Assembly: GCF_900100335.1 (NCBI RefSeq)
Contig: NZ_FNFE01000010.1
Coordinates: 1 to 64,000, forward strand
Length of the DNA stretch: 64,000 bases
Direction: 5' to 3'
DNA from: Natronorubrum texcoconense
Lineage (GTDB): Archaea; Halobacteriota; Halobacteria; Halobacteriales; Natrialbaceae
Of this stretch, positions 1-2,065 are shown one piece after another. The first letter of the stretch is position 1. Every line of letters begins with the position of its first letter. Under the pieces are notes generated by a model, which was given only the letters and a program-made list of their open reading frames with translations, ran no database searches and had not been told where the DNA came from. The position numbers were made by a program, and so were the translations under genes.

Positions 1-667
1 CGACCGTCTCGCCTACCGTCTCATCGACGGTTTCGCTCACCGTCTCCTCGACTGTTTCACCCACCGTCTCTTCGACCGTTTTCTCGACCGTCTCGTCGAC
101 CGTCTCGCTCACCGTCTCCTCGACGGTTTCACCCACAGTCTCTTCCACCGTTTTCTCGACAGTCTCGCCAACCGTCTCATCGACCGTCTCGCTCACGGTT
201 TGTTCGACAGTCTCGCCAACCGTCTCGTCGACCGTCTTCTCGAGCGTCTCGCCGACGGTCTTTTCGACAGTCTCGCCGACGGTCTTCTCAACCGTCTCTC
301 CAACCGTCTCGTCAACGGTTTGTTCGACCGTCTCACCGACAGTTTTCTCGACCGTTTCGTCGACCGTCTCGCCAACCGTCTTCTCGACGGACTCCTCGAC
401 GGCTCTGGTCATCCAGTCGGGATCGAACCGAGCCATCTTCCAGACCACGTGGACGACGTACGAGGCAAAGACCCCCAGCCCGAACGCCAGTCCGGTCTGG
501 CTATCGAGCACCATAATCAAGCCGATCGAGATAAAGATCAACGCACCATACGCGAAGTCAGTAATCGCGTCGACACGAGCCGGTCTCATCGGTGGTCGAT
601 AGCGATCTCTCTGCCGGTTAGCGTACTTTGCGACAACCCACTGGTGTTCGAGAGACGGCGCGTCCAT
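1..667 (-). CDS. Two-helix membrane protein with tandem four-residue (x-E/K/Q-T-V) repeats, 3' part outside the window
   Basis: The gene reads leftward from ATG at 667 and is still open at the window edge (222 codons seen). Residues 1-33 are basic and soluble; about 34-56 and 58-76 are two hydrophobic helices (ITDFAYGALIFISIGLIMVL, then a GLAFGLGVFASYVVHVVW segment). From residue 91 to the edge come 33 uninterrupted tetrapeptides of form [G/D/E/S]-[E/K/Q]-T-V. Val and Thr codons vary widely, so the protein pattern is held by selection or by old amplification, although a newer 24-residue (72 bp) higher-order duplication is also visible near the edge. No family is recognised. The tail should be exposed, rich in Glu, and either a long amphipathic helix or a beta-rich stalk. 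The function is unknown. Confidence 0.85.
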   Translation of the reverse strand, partial: MDAPSLEHQWVVAKYANRQRDRYRPPMRPARVDAITDFAYGALIFISIGLIMVLDSQTGLAFGLGVFASYVVHVVWKMARFDPDWMTRAVEESVEKTVGETVDETVEKTVGETVEQTVDETVGETVEKTVGETVEKTVGETLEKTVDETVGETVEQTVSETVDETVGETVEKTVEETVGETVEETVSETVDETVEKTVEETVGETVEETVSETVDETVGETV

Positions 668-880: not shown

Positions 881-2065
881 GTGACGGAAGTACTGCTCAT
901 CGTGGGGATCCTGGTCGCAATGTTCGTCGGGTATAACATCGGTGGGGCGACGACCGGTCCCGCGTTCGGCCCGGCCGTCGGTGCGAACGTCATCACGAAA
1001 CTGATGGCCGCCGCGCTGATGTCGGTTTTCTTCTTCATCGGCGCGATTACGATCGGTCCACAGGTCGTCGACACGCTGGGGACGGAGCTCGTTCATGACC
1101 CCGGAATCTTCACCATGCGATCGAACGTCGCCGTCCTCTTCTTTATCGGTGGCGCGCTGTTCGTCGGGAACTACGCCGGCGTTCCAGCATCGACATCGAT
1201 GACCGCCGTCGGGGCGATCGCCGCACTCGGCTTCGCAACCGGCGAACTCAATTTCGCAGTCCTCGGCGAAATCGTCGTCTGGTGGATCGTTGCGCCGATC
1301 ATCGGCTTCTGGGTCGCCGGGGTCGTCGGTCGGTACTTCTATCCGCAGATCAACGCGTGGGTCGCCATCGAAGAGAGCGACGGCGACCAACCGATGGTAT
1401 CGGTGAACCGCTCGGGACTCATTCCGCGGCTCCAGTTCGGTGAGAACGCCGATCGGCGGGAGATCACCGGCGCGCTGGTCGTCGTCGCCATCGGCTGTCT
1501 CATGGCCTTCTCCTCGGGAACGAGCAACATCGCGAACGCCATCGCCCCGATCTACGGCACCGGCGACGTGGACATGATTACGCTGATCCTGATCGGTTCG
1601 GTCGCGGTAACGATCGGCTGTTTCACGATCGCTCGTCGAACCCTCGACACGCTCGGCAACGACATCACGAACCTGCCGCTGACGGCCGCCATCGTCGTCG
1701 CCGTCATCAGTTCGGGGATCGTCATCGGGCTCTCGTGGATCGGGATTCCCGCCAGTTTCGTCGTCATCGCGACGATGAGCATCGTCGGCCTCGGCTGGGG
1801 ACGAGCCACCCGAACGACCAAACTCTCTGACGCTGCCCGCGGTGAGAAGGAAACCCGCGTCTCCGTCGGCGCGCTGACCGCCGAAGAGGAAGGCGAGCGA
1901 TCGCCGAAGATCGGTGAAGAGGAGCCGACGGACATCCCCAAGGCGTCCGACCTGTTCGATCCCTCGACGACGGCTCGAGTCATCCTCATGCAGAACGTCG
2001 TCCCCATCATCTCGACGGTCGGCGCCTTCCTCACGTTCCGGTTCGTCCCGATCTTCGGCTTCTGA
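881..2065 (+). CDS. Inorganic phosphate transporter, PiT family
   Basis: 394-residue integral membrane protein of the PiT (PHO4) family, which moves inorganic phosphate into the cell with a cation. Two inverted signature segments are visible: near residues 20-40 (GPAFGPAVGANVITK) and near 210-225 (SSGTSNIANAIAPI), matching the duplicated GANDxANA-type motif of the family. About ten hydrophobic helices surround a hydrophilic central loop, and a second charged loop lies at about residues 310-355. The start is GTG at 881; no better in-frame start lies upstream. It stands alone, and no phosphate regulator is next to it. Confidence 0.93.
   Translation: MTEVLLIVGILVAMFVGYNIGGATTGPAFGPAVGANVITKLMAAALMSVFFFIGAITIGPQVVDTLGTELVHDPGIFTMRSNVAVLFFIGGALFVGNYAGVPASTSMTAVGAIAALGFATGELNFAVLGEIVVWWIVAPIIGFWVAGVVGRYFYPQINAWVAIEESDGDQPMVSVNRSGLIPRLQFGENADRREITGALVVVAIGCLMAFSSGTSNIANAIAPIYGTGDVDMITLILIGSVAVTIGCFTIARRTLDTLGNDITNLPLTAAIVVAVISSGIVIGLSWIGIPASFVVIATMSIVGLGWGRATRTTKLSDAARGEKETRVSVGALTAEEEGERSPKIGEEEPTDIPKASDLFDPSTTARVILMQNVVPIISTVGAFLTFRFVPIFGF

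Follow-up and report, generated by a model that had tools for sequence, protein, structure and literature searches.

A haloarchaeal membrane protein family with a tail of four-residue repeats, a candidate accessory of PiT-type phosphate permeases

A gene encoding a membrane hairpin followed by a long tail of tetrapeptide repeats was found at the edge of the window (the whole 64,000-nt stretch of DNA analysed, contig C11:1-64000 of genome G000). It belongs to a widespread and unannotated haloarchaeal family with an unusual repeat. On balance, the repeat protein probably serves the PiT-type (PHO4, SLC20-like) phosphate permeases of haloarchaea as an accessory protein. This reading was the best supported because of the linkage to PiT genes, 13 loci with overlapping reading frames, a sister family that also lies beside PiT, the conserved hairpin and the register kept in the tail, whereas a role in the outer layer of the cell is unlikely.

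The minus-strand frame from 667 to 2 was open up to the window edge, which is also the contig end, and coded for 222 aa with 33 tetrads from residue 91. At its start, contig C10 carried this repeat too, pointing outward, and the gene ran on there in frame for 81 further residues before a stop; a stop or frameshift just outside the window was looked for and was absent. The first 28 bases of C10 were identical to the last 28 of the window gene, and this exact 28-mer occurred once in each piece. Furthermore, genome G003 of the same genus possessed an intact version of the gene, with 265 aa and 40 tetrads, and the two genomes agreed in the order of the flanking genes (PiT, repeat gene, UspA, PiT). 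Because of the unique overlap and this intact gene in the same order, the join of C11 and C10 is judged to be sound. The joined gene contained 43 unbroken tetrads in one register, followed by AEMQEQVKSVEERVDRRPREDEVEELVEKSTAEKETDEAED and the stop, and its end after the tetrads was short, charged and heptad-like. Since the contigs break within the repeat, 43 units may be a minimum for the G000 assembly, a collapse of the repeat at the break being conceivable. ATG 589 corresponds to the M(N/R)PxRVDA at which the homologs begin, and the 590-667 stretch is interrupted in G003 by an indel and a TAA; for both reasons the start is most likely ATG 589 and not ATG 667, and the protein most likely has 277 aa. 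The first-pass annotation of a membrane protein with 33 or more repeats was therefore right about the repeats, but probably began the protein too early, at 667. Several draft assemblies stop inside the repeat gene (window positions 1-28 and the ends of L129, L131, L153 and L161); thus the gene splits contigs, and unit counts from drafts are unreliable.

Table 1. Features of the repeat-tail gene and its divergent neighbour (window positions unless a contig is named)
Feature	Position	Strand	Size or basis
Repeat-tail gene, likely coding part	1..589	-	196 codons from ATG 589; open frame, homolog starts, broken upstream stretch in G003
Repeat-tail gene, remainder	contig C10:1-273 (locus L008)		277 aa joined; 28-nt unique overlap
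In-frame stretch upstream of ATG 589, probably non-coding	590..667	-	no conservation; G003 has an indel and a TAA
Transmembrane helix 1, residues 3-27 of the 277-aa protein	509..583	-	AlphaFold2 helix 3-27, hydropathy
Transmembrane helix 2, residues 30-54	428..502	-	AlphaFold2 helix 30-54, hydropathy
Near-invariant WKMARFDPDWM, residues 50-60, probable inner membrane face	410..442	-	invariant residues in 49 homologs
Tetrad array, 33 units in window, 43 joined	1..397	-	
72-bp higher-order unit, copy 1 (EKTVEETVGETVEETVSETVDETV)	86..157	-	
72-bp higher-order unit, copy 2, 65/72 identical	14..85	-	
28-nt exact overlap with start of contig C10, unique in both	1..28	-	
PiT-family phosphate permease (PF01384), divergent neighbour	881..2065	+	Pfam 132.5 bits vs cut-off 33.7

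The neighbourhood of the gene was compared among the family members. A PiT gene was located within 600 bp of 94 of the 151 members, a count inflated by shared descent, and the arrangements were divergent (52), gene-then-PiT (26), convergent (13) and PiT-then-gene (3). A genome carries no more than about 3-7 PiT genes, so adjacency would be expected by chance at well below one percent. Moreover, in at least 13 loci, including those of Halorussus, Halosimplex, Halorientalis and Haloarchaeobius, the stop of the gene overlapped the start of PiT by 1-4 nt, with differing outer neighbours; such an overlap means translational coupling. The conserved gene linkage expected of a PiT accessory was thus found, both within 600 bp and in the overlap loci. 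In bacteria and archaea, Pit permeases are known to have partners of the PhoU-like or DUF47 type, and the window family shares with these accessory proteins a gene that adjoins or overlaps that of the permease. They are soluble helical bundles, whereas the window protein combines a membrane hairpin with a repeat tail, and no PhoU-like or DUF47 family was among the Pfam matches of the N-terminal domain or of the whole protein. All 25 Halorubrum members and those of several other genera were without a nearby PiT. In addition, many haloarchaea with a PiT of the same clade had no member of the repeat-tail family; therefore, the repeat protein cannot be essential for transport and would be an optional partner.

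A different explanation is that the PiT neighbourhood is incidental and that the protein is a general membrane-linked cytoplasmic scaffold or stress protein, one that organises membrane domains, for example, or binds a soluble partner such as UspA. UspA was a neighbour in 62 of 141 loci, the VDRRPREDE end found in many tails went with UspA in the locus (63/19 vs 3/65), and the Halorubrum copies are located elsewhere. However, the UspA association tracks one clade and is confounded by descent, while chance would hardly account for the stop/start overlaps with PiT in other families or for the presence of PiT next to the sister family. We regard a scaffold or stress protein as possible, though rather unlikely.

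The sister family (L210-L235; e.g. L223:1501-1770) was reached via a weak match in G071. Its hairpin, GRQTQFYID..YG...WE.MS.YE, was homologous to that of the repeat-tail family (hhalign probability 95.8, E 7e-9) and had no match in Pfam. The sister tails, such as EERVAEEVEDRV, kept the four-residue spacing of V without TV. The sister loci are short (about 3 kb), and in 14 of the 26 a PiT gene was present at a distance of up to about 1.5 kb, often directly upstream. Two diverged versions of one architecture beside PiT are the strongest argument for a shared function.

Of 100 relatives, 75 possessed the N-terminal domain; when only the 82 good genomes were counted, the figure was 68. Across the phylum the domain was present in 59 of 393 genomes, every match being in the window's own order. 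The GTDB species set gave 200 confirmed stretches, and the 80 loci that were kept all had haloarchaeal names; in the genomes sampled, the family was accordingly found only in haloarchaea. Where annotated, its members are called hypothetical. A search of Pfam and NCBIfam with the N-terminal domain (90 residues) gave no match, and the matches listed for the full protein were driven by the repeat. Solved structures searched with the A3 profile gave no match at E 0.01, and the literature searched contained nothing about tetrapeptide repeats of haloarchaea or about the repeat protein. When a four-tetrad DNA pattern was searched in 61 genomes, only one short stretch, in G034, was outside the family gene among the matches listed. 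The protein is apparently not viral or defence related, because PHROGs, PADLOC and IMG/VR gave no convincing relative. As for conservation, 16 positions were invariant in 49 diverse members, mostly inside WKMARFDPDWM (W50, K51, M52, R54, D56, P57, W59 and M60), which exceeds the needs of a plain membrane anchor. The N-terminal 62 codons of G000 and G003 had 6 synonymous and 0 nonsynonymous differences. In five loci (L045, L067, L071, L107 and L151), two oppositely directed family copies flanked a PiT/UspA cluster; the second copy was clearly shorter and preceded PiT in four of the five.

Two known profiles resembled the tail. CdrL is a haloarchaeal cell-division regulator (Pfam CdrL_M PF24252; PMC7439475), and the window tetrad tail scored 33.2 bits against the CdrL_M cut-off of 27. 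CdrL binds DNA and has a ribbon-helix-helix domain as well as a zinc-ribbon end, whereas the window protein has a membrane hairpin. The identity was rejected: the match covered profile positions 1-30 of 77, wholly inside the tetrads, the C-terminal piece scored 20.5 against the cut-off of 27, and the N-terminal 90 residues formed a transmembrane hairpin without a Pfam match or a ribbon-helix-helix. CdrL_M scored plain ETV tetrads above its cut-off, and automatic annotation may mislabel repeat proteins. DUF445 (PF04286) was also rejected, at 18.6 bits against a curated cut-off of 33.8; its weak matches to the tail were recurrent but all below the cut-off, a helical low-complexity resemblance only.

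The two transmembrane helices named in the first-pass annotation were recovered by both AlphaFold2 and hydropathy. Conserved Arg/Lys residues occurred at the N-terminus and immediately after helix 2 (WKMARF), and the hairpin loop was short and without Lys/Arg in the window protein. The positive-inside rule is established for membrane protein topology, and owing to this placement of Arg/Lys both ends, and hence the tail, would be cytoplasmic. It had initially been proposed that the repeats form an outer-layer stalk, raft or ion-binding brush, and long acidic repeats are indeed common on haloarchaeal surfaces. The idea was not supported, since the positive-inside rule places both ends inside, the start of the window protein had no signal peptide-like sequence and the gene context was that of transport; an extracellular location is very unlikely.

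The register of the tetrads was strict. Among the 33 tetrads of the window, V was last in all but one GETL, and T preceded it in all but EESV. The second codon positions of columns 2-4 were invariant across 42 units, whereas the third positions showed 0.9-1.9 bits of variation, and 31 of the 43 12-mers in the array were distinct. Therefore, the tetrad array did not arise by chance. These values agreed with the earlier claims that the codons vary under a selected protein register and that the exact four-residue period is unusual; the frame was also kept in about 150 homologs. By direct reading, bases 157-86 and 85-14 specified the same 24 residues with 65 of 72 bases identical, as had been noted for a 72-bp higher-order copy near the edge, and a third copy was present on contig C10. 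That units are still being gained or lost was confirmed by the difference of three between G000 (43) and G003 (40).

Tail length varied across the family (quartiles 120-203 aa, maximum 286), and the longest unbroken tetrad run per member was 24 units in the median and 56 at most. Hydrophobic-to-hydrophobic steps were exactly four residues in 4592 of 4949 cases (93%) and three in 312. The median period was 3.94 residues across 150 family tails, and it was exactly 4.0 over the 43 units of the window protein. Some members swapped part of the array for 15-residue 4-3-4-4 units, and many finished in a heptad-like stretch with VDRRPREDE, this short end being present in 82 of 151 members. In three members (L080, L089 and L095) the array came after the VDRRPREDE module and not before it, so the arrays may have expanded more than once. 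For a tetrad with G at position 1, the probability of G in the next tetrad was 0.015, compared with a base of 0.27, and three units on it was 0.286. Because the rate three units on was at base level, the family-wide avoidance of adjacent GETV-GETV points to a constraint against GxxxG and not to simple octad copying.

The tail tolerates large length changes in four-residue steps, as would be expected of a spacer, brush or clustering element but less so of a surface for precise binding. Another possibility is that only the hairpin is functional and that the tail is a mostly neutral, slippage-prone acidic spacer (an entropic brush) of no defined structure. The hugely variable length, the three units between G000 and G003, the strong acidity (76 D+E vs 16 K+R) and the low AlphaFold2 confidence in pure tetrads fit this explanation. 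It is nevertheless unlikely, as the four-residue hydrophobic register was kept despite free synonymous change, the sister family had the same spacing with other residues, and the avoidance of GETVGETV would not be expected from plain slippage.

The AlphaFold2 model of the window protein (mean pLDDT 55) consisted of the hairpin and a long, briefly interrupted helix, with low pLDDT values of about 38-57 in the tail. For L122, the hairpin was followed by a single continuous helix, 58-212 (mean pLDDT 62), and pLDDT was 68-79 in the first part of the tail, with 4-3 spacings, compared with 52-55 in the pure tetrads. The composition, in which the strong beta formers T and V are abundant, would be the one point in favour of a beta-solenoid or another beta fold that places four residues on each face. 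This is highly improbable, since the models of the two members had no strands, members replaced tetrads in place by 4-3-4-4 and heptad segments typical of helices, and the sister tails were made of typical helix formers. Helix and strand could not be told apart by the salt-bridge statistics for K at position 2, which were too weak.

The periodicity of coiled coils is limited to 3.33 to about 3.9 residues per turn; the most extreme example is 3.8, and 4.0 is listed as inaccessible (Hartmann et al. 2016, PMC4786415). By simple arithmetic, the hydrophobic face of a tetrad on an ideal helix rotates 40 degrees per unit and comes full circle per 36 residues. The hydrophobic period of the tetrad tails fell outside 3.33-3.9. 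Because 4.0 exceeds the accessible range, the tail, although helical in prediction, is outside the definition of a known coiled coil. Compared with the right-handed hendecad (11/3), pentadecad (15/4) and YadA 19/5 coiled coils (PMC4786415), some homologs were similar in their 15-residue 4-3-4-4 units and heptad-like C-terminal stretch, whereas the tetrad arrays, at 4.0 residues per turn, were above both the limit of ~3.9 and the record of 3.8. We put forward only tentatively, as an unlikely model, that the tails assemble into a stable alpha-helical structure whose hydrophobic residues recur at exactly every fourth position, a superhelical architecture beyond the documented coiled-coil range that haloarchaea would use as a cytoplasmic rod on a phosphate permease.

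If the protein is a PiT accessory, the hairpin and the WKM...DPDWM segment would sit adjacent to the permease at the inner face, and the tail would extend into the cytoplasm as an alpha-helical rod; at 1.5 A per residue, 43 tetrads would reach about 26 nm. Such a rod might cluster several permeases, join a permease to a soluble partner or gate permease activity, and VDRRPREDE could be the partner-binding end. The family and its divergent sister family hold a 4.0 spacing excluded by theory, over up to 56 consecutive units, and one solved tail would extend the accessible range of coiled coils or reveal another use of such sequences. For the haloarchaea, the analysis also points to a candidate partner of PiT phosphate permeases that is widespread and unannotated.
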